A stretch of DNA of 64,000 nucleotides from Oceanidesulfovibrio marinus (lineage in GTDB: Bacteria > Desulfobacterota > Desulfovibrionia > Desulfovibrionales > Desulfovibrionaceae): contig NZ_CP039543.1 in the NCBI RefSeq assembly GCF_013085545.1, positions 3,379,322 through 3,443,321 of the forward strand, written 5' to 3'. How positions within the stretch are numbered: position 1 is the stretch's first letter; each line of letters begins with the position of its first letter. Shown in pieces: positions 5,947 to 63,579 of this stretch. A program made the position numbers and the translations under genes. Below the pieces are notes generated by a model. The model saw only the letters and a program-made list of their open reading frames with translations. It was not told where the DNA came from and did not search any database.

Positions 5947-5978
5947 TGCGCGGCGCGCGGCCGCAACATGGTTTTAGG

Positions 5979-6121: not shown

Positions 6122-7456
6122 ATGACAACGGCGATGACGGCGCGTACTCACAGGAAGACGCGAACGGGCAGATCGAGGCGAGCCCGCGCCATGGCTTTGC
6201 TGGCGTGCTCGCTTCTCTGGGCTGCGGCCGTGTTGGGCTGCGCAGGAAAGGCCACTCCTCCCATGGCGCCTGTTGTCAACGCCACGGCCGTTGCGGAGCC
6301 GCTGCCGGCTCCGGAGCCGACGCAGGTCTGTCTGCTGCTGCCTCTGAGCGGTCCCTACGCCGCCTATGCGCAGCGTATCCTTCAAGGCGCGCGGCTGGCC
6401 GTGTCGCATATCGCCGGGGCCGGCGTCCCGGTCTCGCTCTCTACCATAGACACCACAGGGGAGGACTGGGCGCGCTCCCTGGCCACGTTGCCGTCAGCCA
6501 TCCGCATAGTGGGCGGTCCCATGCGACCGGAGGCGCTGGGCGAGGTCCTGTCCGCGCCGGGAGCGTTCCGCCGGGCGCATCTGGCGTTCATGGCCGAGCT
6601 GCCGGCCGCCGTGACTACCGGGCAGAGCGGAGGCGCGGCGCGCGCCGTCGCGGAGGGCCGGGATGTCTGGCGGTTTTTCACCAGTGCGGCGGATAATGTG
6701 GATGCGCTTCTCAGCGGTGCGGAAGAGGTGGGCGCACGCGAACTCGGCGTGCTCTACCCGGACGAATCCTTTGGCGTGCGGCGGTCCATCCTGTTCCGGC
6801 AGATGGCCTCTGGCCGCGGCCTCCACGTCGCCGCTGCGCAGCGTTACACCCCGGACGATCCTCAGGGAGCAGCCAGGAGCGCGATGCGACTGCTGCAGGA
6901 GTCCGGCGGCCAGGAACTTGGCGCGGTCTACATTCCAGACGTCTGGTCCCAGGCGCGGCAGCTGATCCCCAACCTGCTCGTTCTGCAACGCCGGCGGCCG
7001 CTTATCCTGGGCTCGGCGCTGTGGGCGCAGACCATGGACATGCGCCGCCCGGACGATGCACTGCTTTTTTCGGGGTCGGTCTTCCCGGGCGCGTGGTGGT
7101 CGGGCAGCGACTCCCAGCCAGCACGAGCCCTGCGCCAGGGCATGGCCGCGTCCGGGGCTCGTCCCGGCTTCTGGGAGGCCCTTGGCTTCGATTTCGTGCG
7201 GCTTGCCTGTCGGATGGGCGATTTGCCCGAAAATTCCACGCCCCAGGACGTAACCGCCGCGCTGCAGAACGCCGCGCGCATGGACTGGGCCATGGCGCCG
7301 CTGCATTGGGATGCGGCCGGCCGGGCTGCGCAGGACCTCTATCTGCTCACTCCCACGCAAACAGGAGCCGAACCCGCCGACATGGACGCACTGCGCCAAC
7401 TGCTGGCGGTGCCGGACTCGCCAGCGACGCCGACAACGCCCGCGCGCAATCAGTAA
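6122..7456 (+). CDS. LpoA-like / periplasmic-binding-fold lipoprotein (putative PBP activator)
   Basis: From ATG 6122 the product is 444 residues. A basic N-terminus and hydrophobic stretch end in a lipobox 'VLGC' (Cys encoded near nt 6238), so it is an exported lipoprotein. The body ('LLLPLSGPYAAYAQRILQGA') is the type 1 periplasmic-binding fold shared by branched-chain amino-acid receptors and the C-domain of LpoA, the activator of PBP1A. The gene follows the PBP1A gene, which favours an Lpo-like role, but a terminator lies between them and a receptor role is not excluded. In-frame ATG 6068 and 6191 are alternative starts; G-rich sequence near 6106 mildly supports 6122. An Asn-Ala-Thr sequon sits just after the lipid-anchored Cys. 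Confidence 0.75.
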   Translation: MTTAMTARTHRKTRTGRSRRARAMALLACSLLWAAAVLGCAGKATPPMAPVVNATAVAEPLPAPEPTQVCLLLPLSGPYAAYAQRILQGARLAVSHIAGAGVPVSLSTIDTTGEDWARSLATLPSAIRIVGGPMRPEALGEVLSAPGAFRRAHLAFMAELPAAVTTGQSGGAARAVAEGRDVWRFFTSAADNVDALLSGAEEVGARELGVLYPDESFGVRRSILFRQMASGRGLHVAAAQRYTPDDPQGAARSAMRLLQESGGQELGAVYIPDVWSQARQLIPNLLVLQRRRPLILGSALWAQTMDMRRPDDALLFSGSVFPGAWWSGSDSQPARALRQGMAASGARPGFWEALGFDFVRLACRMGDLPENSTPQDVTAALQNAARMDWAMAPLHWDAAGRAAQDLYLLTPTQTGAEPADMDALRQLLAVPDSPATPTTPARNQ

Positions 7457-9340: not shown

Positions 9341-9864
9341 AATCGGCGGTTACCGATCAGGAGAAGGCGATGATCTCCTGGTCCCTGCCGCAGAAGATTT
9401 TCGACGTCGCCCGGGCCATGTCGCTGTGGCCCATGACGTTCGGTCTGGCCTGTTGCGCCATCGAGATGATGGCCGTGGGCATGGCGCGGTTCGATATCTC
9501 CCGTTTCGGCGCGGAGGTTTTCCGGCCCTCGCCGCGGCAGTCCGACCTGATGATTGTGGCCGGCACCGTATCCAACAAGATGGCTCCGGCCCTGGTGCGG
9601 CTCTACGAGCAGATGCCCGCTCCCAAGTACGTCATGGCTCTGGGCAACTGCGCCATCGCCGGCGGCCCGTTCGTCTTCAAGGACCAGTACGGCATCGTGG
9701 AAGGCGTGGACAAGCTCGTGCCCGTGGACGTCTATGTGCCGGGCTGCCCGCCGCGGCCGGAAGGGCTGCTCGAAGGCCTGTTCCAGCTCCAGGAAAAGAT
9801 TACGGGACGTCGCTGGTGGCCTGATGCGCCGGCCGAGCCCTCTGCAAACAAGCCGGGTAAATAA
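9319..9864 (+). CDS. nuoB: NADH-quinone oxidoreductase subunit B (cluster N2)
   Basis: The product is 181 residues from ATG 9319, inside the 3' end of nuoA (translational coupling); the frame is open further upstream but conserved sequence begins here. All four ligands of the terminal 4Fe-4S cluster N2 are present: the CC pair in '[10 protein letters not shown]', the Cys in 'GNCAIAGG' and the Cys in 'PGCPPRPEG'. It passes electrons to quinone in the connecting module of complex I. Confidence 0.95.
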
Positions 9865-9883
9865 GCGAGACGAGGAGAACGAG

Positions 9884-10531: not shown

Positions 10532-10540
10532 GAAGCGACC

Positions 10541-11782
10541 ATGTCCGACGAGCAGCTCGACATGACCACGGAAAAGGTTTTGACGCCAGACGAGCCTTCG
10601 AAGATCAAGGCCAGCGGGTTCGACCCCGGCCTGCTCGAGGTGGGCGACGCCTACACCCGCCATTTCCAGGAAGGCCCCAGCGAAGACACCCTCATCATCA
10701 ATATGGGGCCGCAGCACCCGTCCACGCACGGCGTTCTGCGCATCGTCCTGGAGCTGGAAGGCGAGTACATCAAGAAAGCCGAACCGGTTCTTGGCTACGT
10801 GCACCGCATGCACGAAAAAATGGGCGAGAACCGCTCGGCCACGCAGTATCTGCCCAACATGGGCCGCACGGACTATCTGCACGCCCTGGCCTGGAACTGG
10901 GTCTGGGTGGGCGCCGTGGAGAAGCTGGGCGGCATCGAGGTGCCGGAGCGCGCGGAGTACATCCGGGTGCTCACCAACGAGGTCAACCGCATCACCTCGC
11001 ACCTCCTCTGGTGGGGCGCGTACCTGCTGGACCTCGGCGCATTCACGCCCATCATGTACGCCTTCCAGGACCGCGAAATCGCCATGGATCTGCTGCAGCG
11101 CTGCACCGGCTCGCGGCTGACCTACTGCTACTTCCGCTTCGGCGGCGTTTCCGCCGACCTGGACGACGTCTTCATGGACGGCATGCGCGAGTTCATCCCC
11201 TACATGCGCAAGCGGCTGCCCATGTACAAGGCGCTGGTCACCGAGAACCTCATCCTGCGCAAACGCGTCGAGGATGTGGGCGAGTTCAGCCAGGATATCT
11301 GCCGCCGCTACGGCGCGACCGGCCCGGTCAGCCGTGGCTCGGCCATTCCGTTCGATGTCCGCCGCGACGAGCCCTTCTCGGTGTACGACAAGCTCGACTT
11401 CGACATCCCCTTCTATGAAGAGGGCGACGCCATGGCGCGTTACCTGGTGCGCATCGACGAGATCGAAGAGAGCCTCAAGATCATCGAGCAATGCCTTGAC
11501 CGCCTGCCATCCGCCAAGGGCAAGCACATCGTGGACAAGGCGCCGAAAGCCACCTACAAGGCGCCGGCTGGCGAAGTGTACTACGCCGTGGAAAGCGCGC
11601 GCGGCGAGGTGGGCGTCCTGCTCTCCTCCGACGGCGGCGCCAATCCCTACCGCGTGAAGCTGCGCTCGCCGAGCTACTGCAACCTGCACCTCTTCGCCGA
11701 GGCCGCCCAGGGCGTGCTTCTTGGAGACGCCGTCTCCATTCTGGGCAGCCTGGACCTCGTCATCCCGGAGATCGACCGGTGA
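10541..11782 (+). CDS. nuoD: NADH-quinone oxidoreductase subunit D
   Basis: The product is 413 residues, the usual length. The quinone-site signature 'MGPQHPSTHGVLR' is near residue 50 and 'RGEVGVLLSSDGGANPYRVK' near the end, both typical of the 49-kDa subunit, which is derived from the hydrogenase large subunit but lacks its NiFe cysteines. It forms the quinone pocket with NuoB. Its stop overlaps the GTG start of nuoH by 4 nt. Confidence 0.95.
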   Translation: MSDEQLDMTTEKVLTPDEPSKIKASGFDPGLLEVGDAYTRHFQEGPSEDTLIINMGPQHPSTHGVLRIVLELEGEYIKKAEPVLGYVHRMHEKMGENRSATQYLPNMGRTDYLHALAWNWVWVGAVEKLGGIEVPERAEYIRVLTNEVNRITSHLLWWGAYLLDLGAFTPIMYAFQDREIAMDLLQRCTGSRLTYCYFRFGGVSADLDDVFMDGMREFIPYMRKRLPMYKALVTENLILRKRVEDVGEFSQDICRRYGATGPVSRGSAIPFDVRRDEPFSVYDKLDFDIPFYEEGDAMARYLVRIDEIEESLKIIEQCLDRLPSAKGKHIVDKAPKATYKAPAGEVYYAVESARGEVGVLLSSDGGANPYRVKLRSPSYCNLHLFAEAAQGVLLGDAVSILGSLDLVIPEIDR

Positions 11783-12789: not shown

Positions 12790-13386
12790 ATGAAACGCAC
12801 TTACCAAGTACGGCACTACAAGAAAAAGGGCCCGCAGAGCGTGGCGGCCGTGGTCGGCGATTTCTTCTCCGGCCTGTGGAGCCTCGTGGTGGGTCTCGGC
12901 GTGACGGGCCGCAACTTCGCGGACTCCCAGGTCACGGTCCACTACCCCCGCCAGGATGTGGGCGATGAGCAGCTCGTGGGTTATCGCGGTCACATCGAGC
13001 TGGTGCCCAAGCCCAAAGACCCGTTCGCGCCCAAGTGCATCCTGTGCATGATGTGCGCGCGGGTGTGCCCCTCCGGCTGCATCACCGTGAAGATGAAGAA
13101 GCAGCCCAAGGAGGAGCCGGTGGAGGAGGGCGCCAAGCCCAAGAAGGCGCCCAAAGAGGTGGGTGTCTTCCACCTCAACTACAACCTGTGCAGCCTGTGC
13201 TCGCTGTGCGTGCAGAGCTGTCCTGTAGGATCGCTGCGGCACTCCAGGGACGTCTATCTCTCCGGTTTCCAGAAGGAAGATTTCGAGTACGATCTCATGG
13301 AGCGGTTGCACAAGCAGGCCGAGGCCGCGCCCAAAAAGGCGCCGGCGCCGGAAAAAGAAGCCGAGACGGCAGAGGCCGCCGGCTAA
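12790..13386 (+). CDS. nuoI: NADH-quinone oxidoreductase subunit I (two 4Fe-4S ferredoxin-like subunit) with C-terminal tail
   Basis: The product is 198 residues. Two complete C-x2-C-x2-C-x3-CP motifs are present: 'CILCMMCARVCP' and 'CSLCSLCVQSCP'. Between them lies a Lys/Glu/Pro-rich insert, and the last ~30 residues are another Ala/Glu/Lys/Pro-rich tail. The subunit carries clusters N6a/N6b that feed NuoB. In this operon, lacking NuoEFG, NuoI is the likely entry point for electrons. GGAAAGGA lies about 7 nt before ATG 12790. Confidence 0.94.
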   Translation: MKRTYQVRHYKKKGPQSVAAVVGDFFSGLWSLVVGLGVTGRNFADSQVTVHYPRQDVGDEQLVGYRGHIELVPKPKDPFAPKCILCMMCARVCPSGCITVKMKKQPKEEPVEEGAKPKKAPKEVGVFHLNYNLCSLCSLCVQSCPVGSLRHSRDVYLSGFQKEDFEYDLMERLHKQAEAAPKKAPAPEKEAETAEAAG

Positions 13387-13404
13387 GCCCGGGTCGAGGA
13401 TATC

Positions 13405-13926
13405 ATGGACACCCAAAGTGCAGCCCTTTTGCTCTTTATCGTCTACGCCGTCGTGATTCTGGCCGGCGGTATCATGGCGGTCCTCTCCAAGAGCCTGGTG
13501 CGCGCCCTCGTAGGCCTCGTGCTCACGCTCTTCGGCGTGGCCGGCATGTACCTGCTCATGGCCGCGCCGTTTATCGCCCTCATGCAGATCCTCATCTACG
13601 TGGGAGCGGTCGCCGTGCTCATTTTCTTCGCGATCATGCTGACCAACGCGACCTCCAGCGGCGATGAAGCCAAGCCGCGATCGTTTGGCCGCGTCTTCCT
13701 GGCCCTGGTTGCCGCCGCGCTTCCCGCGGGCCTCCTGGCTGCCGTGGCCTGGTCCCAGGCTGCAGCCACAGGCGCTGTGCGGATGCCGGCGGAAGTGTCC
13801 ATCGACCAGCTCGGTAAAGCGCTGCTCAACGAGTACGTGCTCGTGTTCGAGCTCATCTCGGTGGTGCTTTTCGTAGCCATGGCCGGAGCCGTGTTGTTGG
13901 GATTCGAAAGGAGGAAGTCCAAGTGA
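13405..13926 (+). CDS. nuoJ: NADH-quinone oxidoreductase subunit J
   Basis: The product is 173 residues with five predicted membrane helices. 'LMQILIYVGAVAVLIFFAIML' region (nt ~13581-13641) is the conserved third helix containing the pi-bulge seen in NuoJ. It overlaps nuoK by 4 nt. Confidence 0.92.
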   Translation: MDTQSAALLLFIVYAVVILAGGIMAVLSKSLVRALVGLVLTLFGVAGMYLLMAAPFIALMQILIYVGAVAVLIFFAIMLTNATSSGDEAKPRSFGRVFLALVAAALPAGLLAAVAWSQAAATGAVRMPAEVSIDQLGKALLNEYVLVFELISVVLFVAMAGAVLLGFERRKSK

Positions 13927-14234
13927 GCGAGCCGCTCTTTCTTTACCAAGCCGTTGCCCTGCTGCTCTTGTTCCTGGGGATATTCGGTATCATCACTCGC
14001 AAGAGCCTGGTGGGCATGATCATCGCTGTGGAACTGATGCTCAACGGCGCAGGCCTCGCCATCGTGGCCTCCGGACAGCTGACGAGCGCGCCGGGCGACC
14101 TGGCCCAGCTCTCGTCGCTGCTTGTCATGGGACTCGCCGCGGCCGAAGCGACACTGGTGCTCGCCATCATCCTCGTGGTCGCAAAACGGTTCGGCACCGT
14201 GGAAATCGATCGCGTCTCGGAGCTCGAGGGATAA
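13923..14234 (+). CDS. nuoK: NADH-quinone oxidoreductase subunit K
   Basis: The product is 103 residues with three membrane helices and begins at GTG 13923 within the nuoJ stop. It matches MrpC/NuoK proteins ('LVGMIIAVELMLNGAGLAI', with the conserved membrane Glu in the second helix; a second Glu lies in 'AAAEATLVLAII'). These acidic residues belong to the central proton path. Confidence 0.93.
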   Translation: MSEPLFLYQAVALLLLFLGIFGIITRKSLVGMIIAVELMLNGAGLAIVASGQLTSAPGDLAQLSSLLVMGLAAAEATLVLAIILVVAKRFGTVEIDRVSELEG

Positions 14235-14238
14235 ACCC

Positions 14239-15720
14239 ATGCCAGAGATAATCACAACGAGCCGCGTGCTCCTGCCCCTCGCATTCACGTTCGCCGCGCC
14301 ATTCTTCATCTGGCTCTTGCGGAAGAACATCAACGTGCGCGAAGCCGTGAGCTTCACCGCCGCGATCCTGACCACGGCGTCCATGCTCCAGTTCGTGCCC
14401 GGCGTGCTGTCCGGCAAGATCTACACCATCACGGTCTTCACCATCCTCGAAGGCATCAATGTGAAGTTCTGTGTGGACGGCCTAGCCCTCATCTTCGGGC
14501 TTATCGCGCCGTTTTTGTGGATACTGGTCACCAGCTACAACATCGGGTACATGCGCGGGCTCTCCGAACACGCCCAGACGCGCTACTACTTCTGCTTCGC
14601 GGTGGCCATCTTCGGCGCCGTGGGTGTGGCCACAGCCGCGAACATCTTCACCCTCTATCTCTTCTACGAGATCATCTCGCTGTTCACGTACCCGCTGGTC
14701 GCGCATCACGAGGACGAAGAGGCCTTCATCGGCGCGCGCAAGTACTTCATCTACCTCATGGGTACGTCCAAGCTGTTCTTCCTGCCGGCCATGGTGCTCA
14801 CCTACGTACTGGCCGGCACGCTGGACTTCAACCTGGGCGACCTGGTGCACGGCATCTTCCCGCCCAACGCCGACCAGAACCTGGTGACGCTGACCTACAT
14901 CCTGTACATGGCGGGCCTGGCCAAGGCGGCGATCATGCCGTTCCACAACTGGCTGCCCTCGGCCATGGTCGCGCCCACGCCGGTCTCCGCATTGCTCCAC
15001 GCGGTGGCCGTTGTTAAGGCGGGCGTCTTCTCCGTGTGCCGCATGATCCTCTCCGGCTTCGGCCTGGAGCTCATGGACAAGTACTTCCTCGGAATTCCGA
15101 CGGCGTACGTGGCGGCCTTCACCATCGTGGTGGCCTCGTTCATTGCGCTGACAAAGGACGACATCAAGGCGCGGCTGGCCTACTCCACAGTGAGCCAGCT
15201 CTCCTACGTGGTCATCGGTGTGGCCATGCTCACGCCGCTGGCGGTGCAGGGCGGCCTCATGCACATCGCCCACCACGCCTTCAGCAAGATCACACTCTTT
15301 ATGGGCGCCGGCGCCATCTATGTCGCCACGCACACCAAGAAGATCAGCCTGATGCACGGCATGGGAAGGAGGATGCCCTGGACGTTCGGCGCCTTCTCCA
15401 TAGCCGCGCTATCCATGATCGGCGTACCGCCGGTCTGCGGCTTCGTCTCCAAGTGGTATATGGTCCGAGGCGCGGTGAGCATCCACGAGAACATCCTGCT
15501 CATTGCGCTCCTGGCCTCGACCCTGCTCAACGCGGGATACTTCGGCCCCATCATTTACAAGGCGTTCTTCCTGCCGGCCGCTCCGGGCGTGAAGCTGGAA
15601 GAGTACCGCGAGGCCTCGCCTGTCATGGTGGTCCCGCTGCTGATCACCGCCACGATCAGCGTGATCCTGGGTTTGTATCCGCAGATTTTCCTCAACTTCA
15701 TCAAGACCTTCTCCTTCTGA
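14239..15720 (+). CDS. Antiporter-like complex I subunit (NuoL/MrpD family), copy 1
   Basis: ATG 14239 gives 493 residues; the frame is open upstream into nuoK, but this ATG sits right after its stop. About 14 membrane helices carry the proton-conducting transporter domain. Key residues are visible: Glu in 'LYLFYEIISLFTYP' (TM5), Lys in 'AGLAKAAIMPFHNWLP' (TM7), Lys in 'VVKAGVF' (TM8) and Lys in 'FSKITLFMGAG' (TM12). It lacks the long lateral helix that ends true NuoL. It is shorter than NuoL and closer to MrpD in style. Confidence 0.88.
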   Translation: MPEIITTSRVLLPLAFTFAAPFFIWLLRKNINVREAVSFTAAILTTASMLQFVPGVLSGKIYTITVFTILEGINVKFCVDGLALIFGLIAPFLWILVTSYNIGYMRGLSEHAQTRYYFCFAVAIFGAVGVATAANIFTLYLFYEIISLFTYPLVAHHEDEEAFIGARKYFIYLMGTSKLFFLPAMVLTYVLAGTLDFNLGDLVHGIFPPNADQNLVTLTYILYMAGLAKAAIMPFHNWLPSAMVAPTPVSALLHAVAVVKAGVFSVCRMILSGFGLELMDKYFLGIPTAYVAAFTIVVASFIALTKDDIKARLAYSTVSQLSYVVIGVAMLTPLAVQGGLMHIAHHAFSKITLFMGAGAIYVATHTKKISLMHGMGRRMPWTFGAFSIAALSMIGVPPVCGFVSKWYMVRGAVSIHENILLIALLASTLLNAGYFGPIIYKAFFLPAAPGVKLEEYREASPVMVVPLLITATISVILGLYPQIFLNFIKTFSF

Positions 15721-54436: not shown

Positions 54437-54778
54437 TCACTGCTGACCGGCATCGCCCGTCGCATTTCTCGCTGCGTCATTCGCGGCGTTGTCCATTCCG
54501 TTCCCTGTCGCATTGGCTGCCGCAGTCGCCGTCGAGTTATCCGTCGCATTCCCCGTTGCATTACCTGTTGCGTTGTCCTCCGAGACATACGGGCCCTCCG
54601 GCGCGTAGCGCCCGCCGTGGCGTTCCTCGCGCCAGCGGCGCACCAAGGGCGAGGGCGCGTCGTCGTAGCGGTTCGGGTAGCGGCGGTAGAGCCCGCGGTC
54701 CAGCCTCGACTGCGCATGCACAGGGGCCGCGCAGGACAAAGCGATGAGCATGGCCCAGGCAAGCAGTACATATCGCAT
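54437..54778 (-). CDS. Secreted protein with Asn-Ala-Thr sequon cluster
   Basis: ATG 54778 has GGAGG upstream and gives 113 residues. A signal peptide ends at 'APVHAQS' (cleavage after AQ or HA). A short Arg/Tyr-rich middle is followed by a C-terminal ~45 residues made almost only of Asn, Ala, Thr, Gly and Asp, with six N-x-S/T sequons (for example 'EDNATGNATGNATDNST'). The sequon codons differ from each other, so it is not a recent DNA repeat expansion. The family is unknown. The tail looks like an N-glycosylation acceptor. Confidence 0.7.
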   Translation of the reverse strand: MRYVLLAWAMLIALSCAAPVHAQSRLDRGLYRRYPNRYDDAPSPLVRRWREERHGGRYAPEGPYVSEDNATGNATGNATDNSTATAAANATGNGMDNAANDAARNATGDAGQQ

Positions 54779-54855
54779 GGCCGTCCTCCTTGTGGCGTCA
54801 GCGGTCGGTATTGGCTGCACCATAGCACAGGCGGCGGGCGTCCGATATCTGTATA

Positions 54856-54886
54856 AAAAGAAGGCAGCCGTCATGCGACGGCTGCC
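54856..54886 (-). terminator. Minus-strand terminator
   Basis: A perfect 10-bp stem (GGCAGCCGTC / GACGGCTGCC, 54863-54886, 4-nt loop) is followed on the minus strand by TTCTTTTT. It ends the transcript of the Gly/Tyr-rich gene 146 nt downstream of its stop. Confidence 0.85.
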
Positions 54887-55032
54887 AGGGCGGGTCAGAC
54901 GGAAGGAAAGTTTCGGGAAGACGGGCCAAGGGGGGCCAGGAGCCCGTCTTCCCTACGGACGGCAGGAGGGTGGCCCAACAATGCGCTCTCGTCCTGTGCG
55001 GCGTCAGGCCAAGAGCACGATCGTTGGAAAGG

Positions 55033-55323
55033 CTACCGGTTGGTGGTGCCGCCGGTGTTCAGTCGGCGGGGTGTGTTCTGCCGGTACGTGTCGTAGCTCA
55101 TATGGGAACCGTCCTGGCTCCCCGTCCAGCAGGGTGCGTAACCGTAACCGCGGTTCTGGTTGTTGTATGCGGCGTGGTTGTAGCCGTGTCCCATGCCCAT
55201 GCCGCATGGTCCGTGCCCATATCGATACCCCTGGCGGGCCGTGTTGGGGCCGGCGGCAAAGGAATGGCCGGCCAGGAGAATGAGCGCTGCGAAGAGTGTT
55301 GCGATGAAAAAGGCGTTGCGCAT
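55033..55323 (-). CDS. Small secreted Gly/Tyr/Asn/His-rich protein
   Basis: The product is 96 residues. A signal peptide ends at 'GHSFAAG' (AxA-type site). The mature part is rich in Gly, Tyr, His and Asn ('YGHGPCGMGMGHGYNH') and has two Cys. GAGGAG precedes ATG 55323. No family is recognised. A sigma-54 type promoter lies 42 nt upstream and a terminator downstream, so it forms its own unit. Confidence 0.7.
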   Translation of the reverse strand: MRNAFFIATLFAALILLAGHSFAAGPNTARQGYRYGHGPCGMGMGHGYNHAAYNNQNRGYGYAPCWTGSQDGSHMSYDTYRQNTPRRLNTGGTTNR

Positions 55324-55364
55324 GATGTCTGCTCCTCTTTTTTCGTTGCGTTCGACTCTAGAAA

Positions 55365-55381
55365 AGCATCACTCATGCCAA
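55365..55381 (-). promoter_or_regulatory. Candidate sigma-54 promoter
   Basis: On the minus strand TTGGCATGAGTGATGCT matches the -24/-12 consensus TTGGCACG-N4-TTGCT with two mismatches and the exact 10-nt spacing between GG and GC. The predicted start is about 32 nt before the ATG of the Gly/Tyr-rich gene. Confidence 0.6.
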
Positions 55382-55539
55382 ACCGACATGGTTCAGCTTA
55401 CAGGCTGCAATTGTTGATAAAAATGGAAATCAGGCTGCGCGGCGAGAGCTGAACAGGCGTATATAAAGTATACAGCGTGTCTAAAAGCTATACGAATAGT
55501 TCTGAAAGAAATGTACGGGTTGCGTGGCCGCCGTGCATC

Positions 55540-55571
55540 AAAAAGGCGACGGCTGGGCTGGCCGTCGCCTT
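55540..55571 (-). terminator. Rubredoxin terminator (minus strand)
   Basis: AAGGCGACGGC / GCCGTCGCCTT form an 11-bp perfect stem with a 7-nt loop; on the minus strand TTTTTG follows. It lies about 35 nt after the rubredoxin stop. Confidence 0.9.
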
Positions 55572-55605
55572 GCTGTGGAGAGCGCGCGAGTCGATCTGCT
55601 CCCGC

Positions 55606-55836
55606 TCATATGGTCGGTGTCTCGCACTTGGAAAGATCGTCCTTGGTGGAGCCCGGTCCGGCAAGGGGCTTGAAGCACTTCCTGGTCGCCCCGCAGATAG
55701 GGCACCGCCACGTATCGGGAAGGTCTTCGAACTTCGTGCCCTTGGGAATCTTGCCCTTGCGGTCGCCCTTGTCCGGGTCGTAGATGTAACCGCAGTTCAC
55801 GGTCTGACATTGGTACATTTCTTCCGGTCTGGACAT
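55606..55836 (-). CDS. Rubredoxin-like protein with C-x4-C first motif
   Basis: ATG 55836 (AAGGAGG upstream) gives 76 residues. The pattern is '[16 protein letters not shown]' ... '[13 protein letters not shown]', so the first iron-binding pair is C-x4-C instead of the usual C-x2-C. A tail of ~20 residues with an extra Cys follows. Rubredoxins are cytoplasmic one-electron carriers that often serve oxygen or superoxide reduction. C-x4-C rubredoxins have, as I recall, been described in Desulfovibrio as a second type. Confidence 0.88.
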
Positions 55837-56095
55837 GCTGCCTCCTTGTGGGATGTCAATGAATCTGCTTGCGCCGCCAGACCCGTCGAGTGCATTGACG
55901 GGTCCACATCCCCTTACTATGAGAGTCAAACACGCCGAGCAAAAGTCAAGGCGCTGCGCGCGGTTTCGATGCCCTGAACAAAGGTTTTCAGCCAGGGCTT
56001 TTCCTTGGGGGACAAACCATGTAGAGAGGCGTCTCCCGCAGTCGCAGCCGTTTACATTCATGCATCCAAGTCAGTCTGTGCAACCGGAGGCTCAC

Positions 56096-57268
56096 GTGTC
56101 CGAAGAACACGTCGTCAACAAGACCCTCGACTCGATCAACGAACGAATTCGCAAAGGCAAGGCCGTTGTCCTGACGGCCGAAGAGATGACCAAAGCCGTG
56201 TCCGAGATGGGCAAGGTGGAGGCGGCCAAGGAGGTGGACGTCGTCACCACCGGCACGTTCTCGCCCATGTGCTCCTCGGGCATGCTCTTCAACATCGGCC
56301 AGCGCGGGGAGTCCATGCGCGTCTCCCAGATGACGGTCAACGATGTGCCGGCCTACGCCGGCATCGCCGCCGTGGACTGCTACCTGGGCGCCACCGAGAC
56401 CTCCCTGGACGATCCGCTGAACAAGGTCTACCCCGGCGAGTTCAAGTACGGCGGCGGCCACGTCATCGAGGACCTGGTCCGCGGCCGCTCGGTGCACATC
56501 ACGGCCTCGTCCTACGGCACGGACTGCTACCCCCGCCGCTCTCTGGAGCTGGACGTGACGCTGGAGGATCTGCCCTTTGCGCAGCTTCTCAACCCGCGCA
56601 ATGGCTACCAGAACTACAACGTGGCCGTGAACCTGGACGACAAGATCATCTACACATACATGGGGCCGCTCAAGCCGGGCGTGCGCAATGCGAACTTCGC
56701 CACGGCCGGCTGTCTCTCGCCGCTTTTCAACGATCCCCTGTTCAAAACCATCGGCCTGGGCACCAAGATATTCCTGGGCGGCGGCGTGGGCTGGGTGCTG
56801 GGTCCTGGCACGCAGCACAACCCGTCCCCGCCGCGCACGGAGCGGGGCGTTCCCACCCGGCCCGCCGGCACCATGATGGTGCGCGGGGAGATGAAGAACA
56901 TGGACGGCCGCTTCCTGCGCGGCGTCTCCATGCTGGGCTACGGCTGCTCCCTGGCAGTGGGGCTGGGCGTGCCCATCCCCGTGCTCAACGAGGAGATCGC
57001 CTGGTACACCGGCGTCTCGGATGAGGACATCATCATGCCGGTGAAGGATTACGGCGAGGACTACCCCAAGGGTTCGCCCCGGGTGCTGGCAGAGGTGAGC
57101 TACGCCGATCTCAAGAGCGGCCAGATAGAGCTGATGGGCAAGAAGGTGCAGACCGTGCCCATGACGAGCTACATGCTCTCGCTTGAAGTGGCCGAGACGC
57201 TCAAGAGCTGGATTCTCGAAAAAGGCTTCACCCTGACAGCTCCGCAGGAGCTGTTGCCGTCATCCTGA
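56096..57268 (+). CDS. Homocysteine biosynthesis protein (DUF39 / HcyBio)
   Basis: GTG 56096 is chosen because GGAGG lies 5 nt upstream and conserved sequence begins there; ATG 56060 is in frame but has no binding site. The product is 390 residues and matches the DUF39 family ('TTGTFSPMCSSGMLFN', 'PSPPRTERGVPTRPAGTMM', 'RGVSMLGYGCSLAVGLGVP'). In methanogens and sulfate reducers these proteins help convert aspartate semialdehyde and sulfide to homocysteine. Conserved Cys in 'CSSG' and 'YGCS' are candidate functional residues. It overlaps the next gene by 1 nt. Confidence 0.88.
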   Translation: MSEEHVVNKTLDSINERIRKGKAVVLTAEEMTKAVSEMGKVEAAKEVDVVTTGTFSPMCSSGMLFNIGQRGESMRVSQMTVNDVPAYAGIAAVDCYLGATETSLDDPLNKVYPGEFKYGGGHVIEDLVRGRSVHITASSYGTDCYPRRSLELDVTLEDLPFAQLLNPRNGYQNYNVAVNLDDKIIYTYMGPLKPGVRNANFATAGCLSPLFNDPLFKTIGLGTKIFLGGGVGWVLGPGTQHNPSPPRTERGVPTRPAGTMMVRGEMKNMDGRFLRGVSMLGYGCSLAVGLGVPIPVLNEEIAWYTGVSDEDIIMPVKDYGEDYPKGSPRVLAEVSYADLKSGQIELMGKKVQTVPMTSYMLSLEVAETLKSWILEKGFTLTAPQELLPSS

Positions 57269-58077
57269 TGCAGCTGGCAGCGCTCAACGAAAAGCTCGAC
57301 CGCCTGCGCGGCGTCATGGATGATCTGACTCCCGCGCTGCTTGCCGTGTCCGGCGGTCTGGACAGCAGGCTGCTCGCCCACCTGTGTTGGGAGTGGGAGC
57401 ACGACGTGGAGGCGGTGTTTTTCCGCGGCGTGCATGTGAGCCCCTCGGATGCGTCCTGGGCGCGCGCCTGGCTCCACGACAGCGGCCAGCCCTACCACGT
57501 GCTCTCGTTCAATCCGGTGAGCAATCCCAAGGTCTACGCCAACTGCCGGCTGCGCTGCTACTACTGCAAGACTGCGTGCTTCTCCAAGGCGCGCTACCTG
57601 GCCAACGAGCGCTCCATTCCGTACCTGCTGGACGGCAGCAATGTCTCGGATACGGAGGAGTACCGTCCTGGCAGGCAGGCCCTGCTGGAGCTCGATGTGC
57701 AGAGCCCCTTCGTGCTGGCCGGCATGACCAAGGACGACATCCGCGCGGCGGCGCGGCTGACCAAGCTGGAACGGCCCAACCAGCCGTCGCGGCCATGCCT
57801 GCTCACCCGACTGGAGTACGGCATCCCGCCGTCCGAGGAGTGCCTGGCTCGGCTGGGCCTGGCCGAGGATGCGCTTTGCCGCATGGGGTTACGCCAGTTC
57901 CGGCTGCGGGTAACGCGCTCCGGCGCCGCCCTGCACATAGCCCGGGAGGAGGCGGCCACGTGGTACGCCATCCGCGACTGGGCCATGGCGCGGTTGGTGG
58001 AGGAAGGGTTCGAGGACGTGGGCGTGGTGTTCACCACCAGGCTCTCGGGCTTTTTCGACAGAAACAAGGACAAATAA
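57268..58077 (+). CDS. LarE-like PP-loop sulfur transferase
   Basis: The product is 269 residues. The PP-loop 'SGGLDSRLL' binds ATP; 'CRLRCYYCKTACF' is a Cys group and 'RPCLLTRLEYG' matches the LarE region with the sulfur-donating Cys. LarE moves sulfur to a nickel-pincer cofactor; homologues have other sulfur-transfer roles. Translational coupling (TGATG) to the DUF39 gene suggests a sulfur-assimilation role here. No larB or larC is near. Confidence 0.82.
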   Translation: MQLAALNEKLDRLRGVMDDLTPALLAVSGGLDSRLLAHLCWEWEHDVEAVFFRGVHVSPSDASWARAWLHDSGQPYHVLSFNPVSNPKVYANCRLRCYYCKTACFSKARYLANERSIPYLLDGSNVSDTEEYRPGRQALLELDVQSPFVLAGMTKDDIRAAARLTKLERPNQPSRPCLLTRLEYGIPPSEECLARLGLAEDALCRMGLRQFRLRVTRSGAALHIAREEAATWYAIRDWAMARLVEEGFEDVGVVFTTRLSGFFDRNKDK

Positions 58078-58241
58078 GTCCGCGGTGCCTATTCTCGCGC
58101 TGGACAATTATTTCCAGTTTTATTATTCGGACTCTTTCCGCTGATCTCGGCAGTCCTGCCGATACCTACGGACTTTCACACATGCGCCGCCCCTGCGCCA
58201 CTTTGCGGGTCCGGCGCGACACTATACTGAAGGAGCTGACT

Positions 58242-58352
58242 ATGTCCCGTCACAAGAAGCATGAGCGCGCTAAAGAGCTCGATCGCAAGCGTCATCGCCG
58301 CAAAGAGCGCCTCAAAGAGCGCATCAAGGAAGCCAAGCAGGCCAAATCCTAG
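58242..58352 (+). CDS. 36-residue very basic protein
   Basis: The frame from ATG 58242 ends at TAG 58350-58352. AAGGAG lies 6 nt upstream and TATACT at 58223-58228 could be its -10 box. The peptide is almost all Lys, Arg, Glu, His and Ala ('HKKHERAKELDRKRHRRKER') and should be one long charged helix. Good translation signals in a gap between genes support it. It may bind nucleic acid or ribosomes; that is a guess. Confidence 0.6.
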   Translation: MSRHKKHERAKELDRKRHRRKERLKERIKEAKQAKS

Positions 58353-58390
58353 TCGGCCTTCCGCCCGTTTTTCCCTGCAGGTCGTTTCCC

Positions 58391-58411
58391 GGCCGGGTAT
58401 CGCACCCGGCC
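58391..58411 (+). terminator. Hairpin after the 36-codon gene
   Basis: GGCCGGGT and ACCCGGCC form a perfect 8-bp stem with a 5-nt loop. No strong T-tract follows, so termination is uncertain. Confidence 0.45.
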
Positions 58412-58537
58412 GTCAGGCGCAGGAAGCGCGCCTTCCCGCTGACGGCCTGTTCCAGGACGCACGCTCGGATTCCACGCCTTGCTGCTGACCTGCCCCGTGC
58501 GCATACGCGCGGCAGGAAAAGCTCGCCTCCCGGTGCG

Positions 58538-58566
58538 TTGACAAGCACCGGTTCGCTGCTTACTTG
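58538..58566 (+). promoter_or_regulatory. Candidate promoter for the FmdB-like gene
   Basis: A perfect TTGACA (58538-58543) is followed after 17 nt by TACTTG (58561-58566). The -10 is weak. Confidence 0.4.
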
Positions 58567-58622
58567 CAGTGTTGTCGTCCGATTTATTTCGAGATTTCAC
58601 TATTCCATCGTGGAGGCTCGTC

Positions 58623-58994
58623 ATGCCTATTTATGAATATCGTTGCGAGGATTGCGGACAAATTTTCGAGGAGTGGCAGAAAAACTTCGACGAAAAGAAG
58701 GTCAACTGCCCGGTCTGCGGCCACAACTCCGAACGCATCATCTCCAATACCTCGTTCATCCTCAAGGGCTCCGGCTGGTACGTCACTGACTACTGCGACC
58801 GCAAGTCCAGCTCGTCCGGTAACGGCTCGTCTGGTAACGGCTCCTCCGGCAACGGCAATGGCACGTCCGGCAAGAAGGCCGATTCCAACGGCTCATCCGG
58901 CGCGTCCAAGTCCGACGCCAAGACCACGGCTTCCAAGTCCAAGCCGGCCGAGAGCAAGCCTGCCGCCAAGTCCTCCGGATCGGCGCAGGCGTAA
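58623..58994 (+). CDS. FmdB-family zinc-ribbon protein with Ser/Gly/Lys-rich tail
   Basis: ATG 58623 gives 123 residues. The first ~50 are the FmdB regulatory domain: 'MPIYEYRCEDCG' and 'CPVCG' form the zinc ribbon, followed by 'SFILKGSGWYVTDY'. The remaining ~70 residues are low-complexity Ser, Gly, Asn and Lys with a repeated SGNGS pattern. The family is tied to regulation of formamide and amide genes in a few cases, but is mostly of unknown function. It precedes purB. Confidence 0.88.
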   Translation: MPIYEYRCEDCGQIFEEWQKNFDEKKVNCPVCGHNSERIISNTSFILKGSGWYVTDYCDRKSSSSGNGSSGNGSSGNGNGTSGKKADSNGSSGASKSDAKTTASKSKPAESKPAAKSSGSAQA

Positions 58995-59078
58995 CGCCGC
59001 GAAATTTCATGCAGTCCCTGGGCAGCCCGCACACGGCTGCCCATTTTTTTCAGGTCCATACCTTCAGGAAGACCACCG

Positions 59079-60377
59079 ATGATCGAACGCTACACACGTC
59101 CCGAGATGGCTGCGCTCTGGAGCCTTGAAAACAAGTTCAAAGCCTGGCTCGAAGTGGAGATCGCCATCTGCGAGGGCTGGCACGAACTCGGCCGCATCCC
59201 CGCGGACGCCATGCGCGACATCCGCGAGAAATCCGCCATCGACGTGGATCGCATCCTCGAGATCGAGGAGACCACCCGCCACGACGTCATCGCATTCCTC
59301 ACCGCGCTGGAGGAAAAAGTCGGCCCGGCCGCGCGCTTTATCCATCTGGGCTGCACCTCCTCCGACATCGTGGACACGGCTAACGCCCTGTTGCTCATGC
59401 GGGCCGGCGCCAAGGTGGACGAGGACATGGGCCTGCTCCTGGAGACTCTGGAAGAGCTCGCCTTCAAGCACAAGTCCGTGCTCTGCATGGGCCGCACCCA
59501 CGGCATCCACGCCGAGCCCACCAGCTTCGGCCTCAAGATGGCCGGGTACTACGCCGAGTTCACGCGCCACCGCGAGCGCTTGGCCAGCGCGCGGGAGTCC
59601 GTGCGCGTGGGCAAGATCTCCGGCGCCGTGGGCACGTACGCCAACCTCGACCCCGAGGTGGAGCGCATCGCCTGCGAGCGTCTGGGTCTGGCCGTGGACC
59701 CCGTGTCCACGCAGATTGTGCAGCGCGACCGCTACGCCCACTTCTTCACGGCCCTGGGCGTTGCCGCCGGCGGTCTGGAGCGCCTCGCCGTGGAGCTGCG
59801 CCATCTGCAGCGCACCGAGGTCCTGGAAGCCGAGGAAGGATTCGCCAAGGGGCAGAAGGGCTCCTCGGCCATGCCGCACAAGAAGAACCCCATTTCCGCC
59901 GAGAACCTGACCGGCCTTATGCGCCTGGTGCGCTCCAACTCCCTGGCCTCCATGGAGGACCAGGCCCTCTGGCACGAGCGCGACATCAGCCACTCCTCGG
60001 TGGAGCGCGTGATCATGCCGGACAGCACCATTCTCATGGACTACGCCCTTGCCCGCATGCGCGGCGTGCTGGACCGGCTGGTGATCAAGCCGGAGAACAT
60101 GCTGCGCAACATGGAGCGCTCTTACGGGCTGGTGTACTCCCAGCGCGTGCTGCTGGCGCTGGTGGAGGCGGGCATGGACCGCCAGGAAGCGTACGTGCTG
60201 GTGCAGCGCCAGGCCATGCGCGCCTGGGAGGAGGGCCGCTCCTTCGAGACGTTCGTGCGCGGCGACGAGGAGATCTGCGGCAAGCTGACGCCTGAGGCCC
60301 TGGACGCCGCCTTTGATCCCGGCTATTTCCTCCGCCATGAGGATTTGATCTTCAAACGCGTCTTCGGTCGCTCCTGA
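59079..60377 (+). CDS. purB: Adenylosuccinate lyase
   Basis: The product is 432 residues. The fumarase-superfamily signature 'GSSAMPHKKNPISAEN' is near residue 263, with 'HLGCTSSDIVDTANA' and 'GRTHGIHAEPTSFG' upstream. It acts twice in purine synthesis, on SAICAR and adenylosuccinate. It is followed after 42 nt by pyrE. Confidence 0.97.
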   Translation: MIERYTRPEMAALWSLENKFKAWLEVEIAICEGWHELGRIPADAMRDIREKSAIDVDRILEIEETTRHDVIAFLTALEEKVGPAARFIHLGCTSSDIVDTANALLLMRAGAKVDEDMGLLLETLEELAFKHKSVLCMGRTHGIHAEPTSFGLKMAGYYAEFTRHRERLASARESVRVGKISGAVGTYANLDPEVERIACERLGLAVDPVSTQIVQRDRYAHFFTALGVAAGGLERLAVELRHLQRTEVLEAEEGFAKGQKGSSAMPHKKNPISAENLTGLMRLVRSNSLASMEDQALWHERDISHSSVERVIMPDSTILMDYALARMRGVLDRLVIKPENMLRNMERSYGLVYSQRVLLALVEAGMDRQEAYVLVQRQAMRAWEEGRSFETFVRGDEEICGKLTPEALDAAFDPGYFLRHEDLIFKRVFGRS

Positions 60378-60405
60378 TCGAGCCGCTGCCCGCAACAAAT
60401 TACTG

Positions 60406-60421
60406 ACGAAGGAGCCTTCGT
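60406..60421 (+). promoter_or_regulatory. Hairpin covering the pyrE ribosome binding site and start
   Basis: ACGAAG-GAGC-CTTCGT is a perfect 6-bp stem with a 4-nt loop. It contains the AAGGAG binding site and the first two bases of the GTG start codon (60420-60422). Confidence 0.55.
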
Positions 60422-61025
60422 GAACATCGACTCCAAAGAGTCCAGACGCGAGCGCCTGGCCGCACTGCTGATCGAGAAATCGTATCGCGAGGGCGACTTC
60501 ACGCTCACCTCCGGCCGCAAGAGCGACTACTACTTCGACTGCAAGCAGACCGCCCTGCATCCCGAGGGCGGCTATCTGCTCGGCAAGCTGCTGCTGGCCG
60601 AGGTGCTGGCCATGGGCGAGTCGATCCACGGCGTCGGCGGCATGACGTTGGGCGCCGATCCGCTGGTTTCCGCCGTGAGCGTGCTGTCTCATGCCGAGGT
60701 GCTGGCCGGCCGGGTGAACGCCCGTCCGCTGCCCGCCTTCATCGTGCGCAAGAAACCCAAGGGCCATGGCACGGATCAATATCTGGAGGGGCTTGCCAAC
60801 TTCCCGACTGGCGCGCCGGTGGTGATGCTGGAGGACGTGGTGACCACGGGCGGAACCCTGCTTACAGCGTGCGAACGCGTCGCCGCGGCCGGGCTCCGGG
60901 TTGCAGGCATTGTCAGCGTGCTGGACCGTCAAGAAGGCGGCGCCGAGGCCATTGCCCAGGCCGGGTATCATTTGGTCAGCTTGTTCACCCGATCCTCGCT
61001 GCTGAAGGCCGCAGGCCGCGGCTAA
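60420..61025 (+). CDS. pyrE: Orotate phosphoribosyltransferase
   Basis: The product is 201 residues from GTG 60420. 'TLTSGRKSDYYFDCK' is the orotate-binding region and 'MLEDVVTTGGTLLTA' is the PRPP-binding motif. It makes OMP in pyrimidine synthesis. It is the second gene of a purB-pyrE unit that ends at a small terminator. Confidence 0.95.
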   Translation: MNIDSKESRRERLAALLIEKSYREGDFTLTSGRKSDYYFDCKQTALHPEGGYLLGKLLLAEVLAMGESIHGVGGMTLGADPLVSAVSVLSHAEVLAGRVNARPLPAFIVRKKPKGHGTDQYLEGLANFPTGAPVVMLEDVVTTGGTLLTACERVAAAGLRVAGIVSVLDRQEGGAEAIAQAGYHLVSLFTRSSLLKAAGRG

Positions 61026-61082
61026 TCTACTCTATGGACAATATTCGGGGTGTGGGATACGTGAGAGTCTACACAACGCCCT

Positions 61083-61104
61083 GGATGTAACATCCGTATT
61101 TTTT
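61083..61104 (+). terminator. Terminator after pyrE
   Basis: GGATG-TAA-CATCC is followed by GTATTTTTT. The stem is only 5 bp, but the T-run is good. Confidence 0.55.
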
Positions 61105-61135
61105 ACAGAAAATGTAGAGAAAGTGCCGAGAACTC

Positions 61136-61165
61136 TTGACCCTGGAAGTATTAATCTGATATAAT
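61136..61165 (+). promoter_or_regulatory. Strong sigma-70 type promoter
   Basis: TTGACC (61136-61141) and a perfect TATAAT (61160-61165) are spaced by 18 nt. TATAAC at 61175 is a second -10-like box. The predicted start is near 61172, almost 300 nt before the next gene. Confidence 0.65.
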
Positions 61166-61171
61166 TGAATT

Positions 61172-61328
61172 TAGTATAACCAGGAATGAGCCGGAAGCTC
61201 CAGTGCGGGCGCAGGAGCACGAATTTTTGTGGTGTTAAGAAAATAGCAAATTTTCCGAGAGGTAAGCAGAACCGAAACAGCTGACCGGGGGGACAGCGCT
61301 CGGATTTGATGTCAGTCGAACAGAGCCT
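61172..61328 (+). ncRNA. Possible structured leader RNA or small RNA
   Basis: Downstream of the sigma-70 promoter are a hairpin (GCTCC-AG-TGCG/CGCA-GGAGC, 61197-61218) followed by ATTTTTG, and a helix CCGAG (61255-61259) / CTCGG (61299-61303) enclosing a GCTGACC/GGACAGC stem. I could not match it to a known riboswitch class. It could also be enhancer DNA for the sigma-54 promoter. Confidence 0.3.
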
Positions 61329-61345
61329 TTGGCACGGTTCGTGCT
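61329..61345 (+). promoter_or_regulatory. Near-consensus sigma-54 promoter
   Basis: TTGGCACG-GTTC-GTGCT matches the TTGGCACG-N4-TTGCT consensus at all but one defined position, with GG and GC separated by exactly 10 nt. The predicted start is near 61356, about 108 nt before the GTG of the L,D-transpeptidase gene. Confidence 0.75.
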
Positions 61346-61463
61346 GGAATGGGGAGCCTGCGATTGAGTAACACTATGAAAAGGACCAGGCCCGGACTTC
61401 GGCTTCCGGGGTTGGGCCGTCCGCTGCCGAGCAACGTAGCGGAATCGCCGTAAGGAGGAGACT

Positions 61464-62765
61464 GTGCGCGTTTTCGCAGTTCTTCTGGCTCTTTTGATGA
61501 TCCTGTCCGCCCCCGGAATTGCTGCTGCAGGCGATTCGGGCGTTCAGGCGGCCAAAGTGGGATGGGATGCCCACATCAGCGGTCATTCCGCTGGCCCGCC
61601 GCTTCTCATTGGCGTCAGCAAAAAAAATCAGCAACTGTATCTTTTCCAGCAGAGAAGTCCGCTCGCCGTCAAGCAGAGCTTTGTCTGTACCACGGGCGAG
61701 ATGACCGGCGACAAGTTCATCGAGGGTGACTTGCGCACTCCAGAGGGCGTCTACTTTACCGAGCGCCGGCTGGACAGCGGTCTGGACCCTGATCTGTATG
61801 GCAAGCTCGCCTACACGCTCAATTTTCCCAACCCCGTGGACAGGCTCAAGGGCAAGACTGGCTCCGGCATCTGGATTCATGGCCGCGGCCATGCCGTGAC
61901 CCCGCGCGAGACCAAGGGGTGCGTTGCTTTGTACAACCCGGACATGTCCAGGCTGGAAAACGACCTCGACATCGGTCTGCCCGTCATCATTGCCGAGGAT
62001 CTGGAATGGAATCCCGGTGATTCAAATGCCCCGGCTCCGGAGAACCTGGAGGTCCTGGTCAAGCAGTGGGCTCTGGCCTGGCAGGCGCAGTCCGACAAGT
62101 TTTTTGATTTCTACGATTCGGAGAAGTTCACCAAGGCGCAGGGAACCACCTTCGCGGCGTTCCGCCAGCACAAGGAGTCCCTGTTTCACCATCTGGACTG
62201 GATTCAGGTCGCCGCCAACGACGTGATCGTCCTGCCCGGACCCGATTACTGGGTGACGGTGTTTTCACAGTACTACCGGTCCCCGAATCTGACGAGCGCG
62301 GGCGTCAAACGGCTGTATTGGCAAAAGGAGGCCGATGGCGCGCTACGCATTGTGGGCAAGGAGTTCCTTGAAGGGGACGCCGCCTTGGCCCAAAAGCTGG
62401 AGAAAGAGTACCTGCAGCGGGTGACAACGGAAATGAACGGGTTTGTGGATGCCTGGCGCTCCTCGTGGGAGCGCGGCGATCTCGATGCCTACGCGCAGTA
62501 TTACGACAAGAACGCCAATCAGGGGGGACGCCGCGGCATCGAAGCGATCCGCGAGCACAAGCAGGTCGTCTGGCGTGACCAGCCTCCGCAGCGCATTTCC
62601 ATCAAGGATATGAACGTGTCTCTGGATCCGCGGGGGGTTCAGATCAGGTTCAGGCAGAAGTACGAAGCTGCGGGAAATTATTCCGACCTGGGATTGAAGA
62701 CTTTGGTCGTCGCCCCTACCAAGAAGGGCTGGCGCATTCTCAGCGAGGACTGGAGAGTCCTGTAG
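61464..62765 (+). CDS. L,D-transpeptidase (YkuD) with C-terminal NTF2-like domain
   Basis: GTG 61464 has AAGGAGGAG 5 nt upstream; the product is 433 residues. A signal peptide ends near 'PGIAAAGD'. The YkuD domain (~45-180) carries 'IHGRGHAVTPRETKGCVAL', with catalytic His and Cys in the usual HG...GC arrangement, though the residue before GC is Lys rather than Ser. The last ~110 residues are an NTF2/SnoaL-like domain ('AWRSSWERGDLDAYAQYY'). It would form 3-3 cross-links or attach proteins to peptidoglycan in the periplasm. It is 1 nt from the next gene. Confidence 0.9.
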   Translation: MRVFAVLLALLMILSAPGIAAAGDSGVQAAKVGWDAHISGHSAGPPLLIGVSKKNQQLYLFQQRSPLAVKQSFVCTTGEMTGDKFIEGDLRTPEGVYFTERRLDSGLDPDLYGKLAYTLNFPNPVDRLKGKTGSGIWIHGRGHAVTPRETKGCVALYNPDMSRLENDLDIGLPVIIAEDLEWNPGDSNAPAPENLEVLVKQWALAWQAQSDKFFDFYDSEKFTKAQGTTFAAFRQHKESLFHHLDWIQVAANDVIVLPGPDYWVTVFSQYYRSPNLTSAGVKRLYWQKEADGALRIVGKEFLEGDAALAQKLEKEYLQRVTTEMNGFVDAWRSSWERGDLDAYAQYYDKNANQGGRRGIEAIREHKQVVWRDQPPQRISIKDMNVSLDPRGVQIRFRQKYEAAGNYSDLGLKTLVVAPTKKGWRILSEDWRVL

Positions 62766-62766
62766 A

Positions 62767-63579
62767 ATGGGTGGGAAGAAATACAGCGTCATCCTGATGC
62801 GGGATGACGATCACGTACGTCGTTACCGGATGAGCTCCATCTGGTTCAGGTTCGCGATCTATTCATTTATTTTCCTGATCCTTGTTTCGGCCGGGGGCAT
62901 CTATCTCGGGCTGAAGTACTGGAACAAGTACCTCGATGTAAGCGCCACCAACCAGGCGCTGCAGGAGGAGATCCAGACTCAGGATGTGGAGCTGGAGAGG
63001 CTGCGCAACATGGAGCGTATGGTCATGGAGCACCAGACGCTGCCTGACAACGCCACGGCGGAGGACAACGCAACCGGCGTGAACGCCACTGCGGCTGTGC
63101 GCGCAACCGAGCAGGCCAACGCCACGCCCACCGAGACCGTTGCGACGGAGGCCAACGCCACGCCCGAAGCCAATGCAACGCCCACGGCGGCGGTATCCCC
63201 ATACGAGCACGTCACGCCGGTCGAGCTCATGCAGGGCCTGGATAAGGGCGAGACCGCCATCAACGAGCTGAACCTGAAGGAGACCGGCGACGGCTACGCT
63301 ATCCATTTCCTGATCCGGAACGAGAAAGACCGCGGCGTCCTTTCCGGCATGGTCTCCCTGGCGCTCGTGGACCAGGAGGGCGCGATCCGTCCCATCGATG
63401 CGCCCAAGGAGGCGCTCGACTTCACCATCCAGCGCTTCAAGACCATCAATGTGACGTTCAAGACGCCGGATGGGTTGGAAAAAGACAAGACATACGGGCT
63501 GTTGGTCAAGGTAACCAACAAAGCCGGCGAGCTTGTCTTCAGCAAGGTCTACCACCTCCCGGACATTCTCTCCTCATAG
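62767..63579 (+). CDS. Membrane-anchored protein with coiled coil and Asn-Ala-Thr sequon linker
   Basis: The product is 270 residues. One membrane helix (~26-49) follows a short basic cytoplasmic N-terminus; a coiled coil (~58-88) leads to a linker (~92-142) with six NAT sequons, several preceded by Glu at position -2 ('AEDNATG', 'TEANATP', 'PEANATP'). A C-terminal beta-rich domain (~160-270) ends in 'FSKVYHLPDILSS'. It lies 1 nt after the L,D-transpeptidase gene, so the two probably work together in the envelope. No family is recognised. Confidence 0.82.
   Translation: MGGKKYSVILMRDDDHVRRYRMSSIWFRFAIYSFIFLILVSAGGIYLGLKYWNKYLDVSATNQALQEEIQTQDVELERLRNMERMVMEHQTLPDNATAEDNATGVNATAAVRATEQANATPTETVATEANATPEANATPTAAVSPYEHVTPVELMQGLDKGETAINELNLKETGDGYAIHFLIRNEKDRGVLSGMVSLALVDQEGAIRPIDAPKEALDFTIQRFKTINVTFKTPDGLEKDKTYGLLVKVTNKAGELVFSKVYHLPDILSS

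Follow-up and report, generated by a model that had tools for sequence, protein, structure and literature searches.

Why should the same tripeptide recur, packed within a few dozen residues, in two exported proteins encoded on one stretch of bacterial DNA? The stretch in question is 64,000 nucleotides of the chromosome of Oceanidesulfovibrio marinus (NZ_CP039543.1, positions 3,379,322 to 3,443,321; hereafter the window, with positions counted from its first letter) and the proteins, here called P1 and P2, carry clusters of Asn-Ala-Thr (NAT), a form of the N-glycosylation sequon N-X-S/T. The original prediction, made from the letters of the window, took these clusters for linkers glycosylated by a PglB-type transferase. 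That interpretation is supported: P1 and P2 probably contain segments that have evolved naturally to accept N-linked glycans at multiple sites. As the prediction had anticipated, the genome encodes relatives of PglB: a search of the chromosome with PF02516 returned two STT3/PglB homologues, STT3-A and STT3-B.

Sequon clusters and their excess in exported proteins

P1 (54437..54778, reverse strand) is a protein of 113 amino acids (aa) in which a signal peptide (recognized by eye) is followed by a short, charged mature part and then by a tail rich in sequons; an in-frame start further upstream, at 54874, is a possible alternative. The six sequons predicted for the tail are present between residues 69 and 105 (54458..54574, reverse strand): five are NAT (N69, N73, N77, N89 and N105) and one is NST (N81). 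Part of the array may stem from duplication, since a degenerate tandem repeat of 12 bp can still be recognized in it (54501-54562, 66% matches). Searches of Pfam and NCBIfam with P1 gave no match, and among 119 genomes it is matched only in its own genome, in the sole genus mate among those compared (G001) and, weakly, in G098. Adjoining P1 is a small exported protein of 96 aa, rich in Gly, Tyr, His and Asn (55033-55323), for which the Pfam search gave no match.

P2 (62767..63579, forward strand) is a single-pass membrane protein of 270 aa comprising a coiled coil, a disordered linker and a C-terminal beta domain. Its linker (63049..63180, forward strand) holds the six NAT sequons that had been predicted (N95, N101, N106, N118, N130 and N136), and the C-terminal domain has one more sequon, NVT at N228. 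A single-sequence AlphaFold2 model (mean predicted local distance difference test, pLDDT, 66.9; predicted template modelling score, pTM, 0.40) shows a helix at residues 16-88, corresponding to membrane segment plus coiled coil, and a beta domain at residues 163-263. Across residues 90-146 pLDDT falls below 50, and the six NAT are thus predicted to lie in a disordered linker joining the membrane-anchored coiled coil to the C-terminal domain. No tandem array was found at the P2 cluster, and an origin by tandem repetition was rejected there. Codons vary between the sequons, as had been noted from the letters: there are five forms across the six sites of P1, five across the seven of P2 and five across the five in the tail of STT3-A (see below).

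Sequon clusters exceed chance in this genome. The sample comprised the window and 50 further stretches, 1.058 Mb of the 4.76-Mb chromosome (22%), in which 871 genes were called by a simple codon model and assigned to export classes by hydrophobicity; the null was obtained by shuffling residues within 40-residue blocks. Exported proteins contain 30 NAT in 32,630 aa, against a shuffle mean of 6.5 (standard deviation 2.4), and membrane proteins 27 in 93,072 aa (shuffle mean 12.8). The 28 NAT in 161,349 aa of cytoplasmic protein compare with a mean of 23.5 (standard deviation 4.8), so that the comparison of exported with cytoplasmic proteins falls out in favor of the prediction. When a cluster is defined as at least three NAT within 45 residues, clusters are found in 3 of 116 exported and 2 of 218 membrane proteins (5 of 334 together) and in none of 537 cytoplasmic proteins; 200 block-shuffles produced none in any class. 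The excess belongs to Thr-type sequons: in exported proteins N-x-T occurs 82 times against 57.7 expected, and N-x-S, at 47 against 58.9, is not enriched.

These counts are stable. Retrained gene calls (875 genes) gave similar numbers, with exported NAT at 30 against 6.7, and with the window excluded there were 24 against 5.7 in 112 exported proteins and 25 against 22.1 in 502 cytoplasmic ones. In that reduced set 12 of the 112 exported proteins bear NAT, as do 23 of the 502 cytoplasmic proteins (Fisher P = 0.021). Per-residue Fisher tests return P = 3e-7 for this genome and P = 0.013 for the other genomes pooled, but the sites are concentrated in a handful of proteins, which inflates the significance in both cases; the shuffles and the test by protein are to be preferred.

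Candidate acceptor segments are shared by several envelope proteins of the genome, including the tail of STT3-A (C1 marks chromosomal coordinates in what follows). A DUF4350 membrane protein (C1:53276-55060) has seven NAT, a ChaN-type lipoprotein (C1:3901984-3903273) four NAT and one NGT, and a further lipoprotein (C1:3567389-3568837) three NAT. Four NAT each are found in an ABC_transp_aux protein (C1:3705390-3706829), in its downstream neighbor, and in a coiled-coil OmpA-domain protein (C1:3906796-3908058, reverse strand). A multihaem cytochrome (PF13447; C1:4509752-4511134, reverse strand; 9753-11135 of stretch L022) carries four sequons close behind a signal peptide that itself lies upstream of the called start. 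The single sites claimed for two other proteins are also there: the lipoprotein described as LpoA-like (6068-7456, forward strand) has one NAT at 6278..6286, 13 residues past its lipobox Cys, and the open reading frame (ORF) at 139-2364, described as TamB, has one. Because it picked late starts, our gene-calling script overlooked P1 on its first run and classed it as cytoplasmic on the second, and it misfiled the LpoA-like lipoprotein and the cytochrome as cytoplasmic too; this error works against the enrichment.

Three further proteins do not fit the NAT pattern. Two that are rich in N-x-S/T look, by eye, like flagellar hook-type proteins (on stretches L012 and L020), and a third (58623-58994), which we take to be FmdB-like, has a Gly/Ser/Asn tail of SSGNG repeats; a 15-bp tandem repeat is present in that tail at 58810-58856.

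The gene preceding P2 (61464..62765, forward strand) is separated from it by a single base and encodes a YkuD domain of the L,D-transpeptidase fold (PF03734, 1.3e-12) together with a Cds6 C-terminal NTF2-like domain (PF24125, 3.6e-31); its NCBIfam match to LdtF_DpaA_YafK falls far under the cut-off of that family. P2 itself has homologues in 81 of the 119 genomes searched, its own counted in. An attempt to name its family was abandoned: Pfam gave no match, two NCBIfam matches were both below cut-off, and a structure search with the model, whose pTM is low, found generic beta-sandwiches with TM scores to the query of at most 0.29 among the matches listed.

The segments in related genomes

Seven orthologous segments, selected on the O. 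marinus genome alone, have diverged in the genus mate G001 and yet retain 13 sequons among 19 Asn (2.5 expected under the null, a count of 13 being reached in 0 of 5000 shuffles): four in P2, three in the P1 tail, two in DUF4350, two at the cytochrome N-terminus, one each in ChaN and ABC_transp_aux, and none at the end of STT3-A. Left out of this set were a second DUF4350 stretch (one sequon in G001), the ChaN C-terminal tail (none) and the OmpA-domain protein. Some of the P2 sites in G001 may have been inherited in place.

Genomes were also divided by the presence of a transferase candidate. PF02516 is matched in 69 of the 119 genomes (65 over cut-off); to these STT3-positive genomes we added G053 and G056, recovered by a search with the STT3-B protein, and STT3-lacking genomes are those with a match in neither search. 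In four STT3-lacking relatives (G025, G031, G045 and G068) eleven segments together hold 2 sequons among 19 Asn (null 1.9). Among STT3-positive genomes outside the genus, the ABC_transp_aux region has two sequons in G024 and three in G015, and the cytochrome N-terminus none in G024. In pooled proteome samples, exported proteins of four STT3-positive genomes (G001, G017, G040 and G065) contain 9 in 17,738 aa NAT (null 3.7; three of the reversed tripeptide, TAN), those of four STT3-lacking genomes (G009, G025, G045 and G068) 3 in 29,146 aa (null 6.1; five TAN).

Several observations weigh against glycosylation as the explanation. The sequon density of P2 linkers does not differ significantly between 50 STT3-positive and 31 STT3-lacking genomes (Mann-Whitney P = 0.22); at least three linker sequons are found in only five of the former (O. 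marinus, G001, G017, G019 and G055) and also in one of the latter (G063, from a genus in which G035 does have STT3). A difference does emerge from counts per Asn, where 48 STT3-positive genomes outside the genus have 22 sequons among 117 Asn (null 15.4, P = 0.04) and the 31 STT3-lacking genomes 8 among 72 (null 8.4), and it is sharper in linkers of at least 60 aa, with 17 among 42 in 12 STT3-positive genomes outside the genus (null 6.9; 0 of 2000 shuffles as high) and 4 among 41 in 11 STT3-lacking ones (null 5.0), although the 60-aa cut was chosen post hoc and all of these linker statistics ignore kinship. The ChaN insert is without a sequon in all five STT3-positive genomes outside the genus, being mostly short and long only in G065. 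Taken over all N-x-T, exported proteins of the four STT3-positive genomes sampled show no enrichment (34 against 32.1; 56 against 50.3 in the four STT3-lacking ones), and in AT-rich G017 three N-x-T clusters fall in proteins classed as cytoplasmic and none in exported ones. To this may be added that the G001 orthologue of STT3-A (on stretch L172) has no sequon tail, that Pro directly follows three of the six NAT sites of P2, a Pro in this position being one that lowers N-glycosylation, and that gene calls and export classes come from our own simple script. In its strong form the pattern characterizes this genus; weaker or separate cases occur in other STT3-positive lineages.

Might the segments, then, be nothing but unmodified disordered linkers, rich in Ala, Thr, Asn and Pro as a GC-rich genome would have them, with the NAT order a product of composition or of repeat expansion? 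They are indeed of low complexity, the tail of P1 does contain a degenerate 12-bp repeat, and N-x-S/T clusters are also met in genomes that lack STT3 (one exported protein each in G025 and G009, one of the cytoplasmic class in G045). But the order of the residues matters, given 30 NAT against 5 TAN in exported proteins and 28 against 18 in cytoplasmic ones (membrane proteins have 13 TAN); shuffles within 40-residue blocks never yield a cluster of three; the diverged segments of G001 keep their sequons; and the sequon codons vary. We regard this alternative as unlikely.

Transferase candidates and sequon form

STT3-A (C1:171950-174310; 3951-6311 of stretch L003) is a PglB-type transferase homologue of 786 aa in which the STT3 N-terminal and STT3/PglB core domains both score above their curated cut-offs (PF21436 at 69.2 bits, cut-off 23; PF02516 at 47.3 bits, cut-off 24.5). 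It keeps the sequences DTD, SVIE and WWDWG, presumably the motifs named DXD, TIXE-type and WWDXG, and the residues D150, D152, S366, E369, W512, W513, D514 and G516 are invariant between it and seven homologues. An Arg 12 residues past the Glu of SVIE aligns with an Arg in solved PglB chains and is taken, from this alignment, for the likely counterpart of R331 of ClPglB. Against the solved chains themselves STT3-A scores E = 1.1e-25 (5ogl and 6gxc) and E = 8.9e-24 (3rce, the C. lari enzyme according to the part of PMC4894442 available to us). Its score against the NCBIfam PglB equivalog NF050801 is 103.9 bits, below the cut-off of 1300, a value so high that it seems meant for close relatives of Campylobacter PglB; we therefore file STT3-A as a PglB-type homologue and not as that equivalog. 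The last ~27 residues of its C-terminal tail contain five N-x-T sequons. Six matches to PF02397 (phosphoglycosyl transferase-type) in the genome make lipid-linked glycan starts plausible.

STT3-B (C1:1163002-1165092; 13003-15096 of stretch L004) is a divergent second homologue of 697 aa. ORFs resembling glycosyltransferases and transposases, as read from sequence, stand next to its gene. That STT3-B and not STT3-A glycosylates the sites is very improbable: it has the better PF02516 score in the chromosome search (93.4 against 50.5 bits) and glycosyltransferase-like neighbors, but WANWDIA stands where WWDxG is expected at the PglB core, its lower third-position GC (0.66) and the transposase-like ORF suggest a recent gain, and the only STT3 match in G001, where sequons are kept, is the orthologue of STT3-A.

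What kind of transferase the sites would suit can be read from their form. In nine segments of the O. marinus genome, 35 cluster sites were picked by the N-X-S/T pattern; 33 end in Thr and 27 are NAT. Glu at position -2, seen at several sites by the original prediction and likened there to the PglB sequon of bacteria, does occur at several (one of six in P1, three of the six NAT in P2), but does not hold as a rule, an acidic residue occupying -2 at only six of the 35 (five Glu, one Asp). The sites are thus not of the Campylobacter type, with D/E at -2; they agree with the relaxed acceptor sites of Desulfovibrio PglB enzymes (PMC4894442), in which X is not Pro and -2 is free, and they lie in exported proteins. 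With N-x-T enriched and N-x-S not, this form suits a relaxed, Thr-preferring transferase and is at odds with the Campylobacter rule.

A putative glycosylation route and its relation to known systems

Under the reading we favor, P1 and P2 would first be exported through the inner membrane, whereupon STT3-A would most likely move a lipid-linked oligosaccharide onto the Asn of N-x-T in flexible periplasmic stretches. The products would be extended, densely sugar-coated linkers and tails, the sugars perhaps rendering them stiffer or more extended, soluble, and protected from proteases in the periplasm. Site occupancy, the responsible enzyme and the identity of the glycan are what we infer here; glycosylation by STT3-A after export would explain at once the order of the tripeptide, the preference for Thr, the export bias, the persistence of sequons in diverged segments and the occurrence of the enzyme in this genome.

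Dense glycosylation of disordered linkers has been discussed for O-glycosylation and for eukaryotic mucins. Occupancy of the sites described here would mean that bacteria, too, have disordered linkers dense in N-glycans, and the natural segments would then be useful as acceptor tags for relaxed transferases. A bolder and decidedly tentative idea is that the genus has evolved N-glycosylated, mucin-like domains: disordered envelope segments would gain N-x-T under selection that acts on the density of sugars and is blind to their exact position, and the transferase would glycosylate its own tail, which could tune or tether the enzyme. PglB-type transferases are already known; the many-sequon segments look new. 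Titles and the beginnings of abstracts in the open-licence literature yielded no publication dealing with clustered N-sequons in the envelope proteins of Desulfovibrio, a weak negative. Native acceptors of Desulfovibrio-type PglB are scarcely known, one site (in HmcA) being named in the available part of PMC4894442; the present genome supplies a list of candidate multi-site acceptors together with a clear transferase candidate.

Three kinds of known system invite comparison. Engineered glycotags are tandem DQNAT sequences placed on recombinant proteins; like them, the segments described here hold several sequons in a flexible terminal tail, but they are natural and irregular, with varied flanks and codons. 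With the PglB of Campylobacter jejuni and C. lari, STT3-A shares a core of DXD, TIXE-type and WWDxG motifs. The C. jejuni enzyme is largely confined to sites that have an acidic residue at -2, according to the part of PMC4894442 available to us, and in this the cluster sites, with their six acids in 35, differ from it. Closest are the PglB systems of Desulfovibrio: the same part of that paper reports that the enzymes of D. gigas, D. desulfuricans and D. vulgaris glycosylate N-X-T with relaxed requirements at -2, and a PglB-type homologue, exported candidate acceptors and N-X-T without an acid at -2 are likewise what is found here. D. gigas PglB keeps an Arg equivalent to R331 of ClPglB, as STT3-A appears to do, and is nonetheless the most relaxed enzyme described there. 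Its acceptor HmcA is a multihaem cytochrome, as is one of the carriers in the present genome (C1:4509752-4511134). In HmcA the glycan sits at a single native site, within TANGT (PMC4894442, same part); here, by contrast, many candidate sites are gathered in disordered segments of several proteins, the transferase included.

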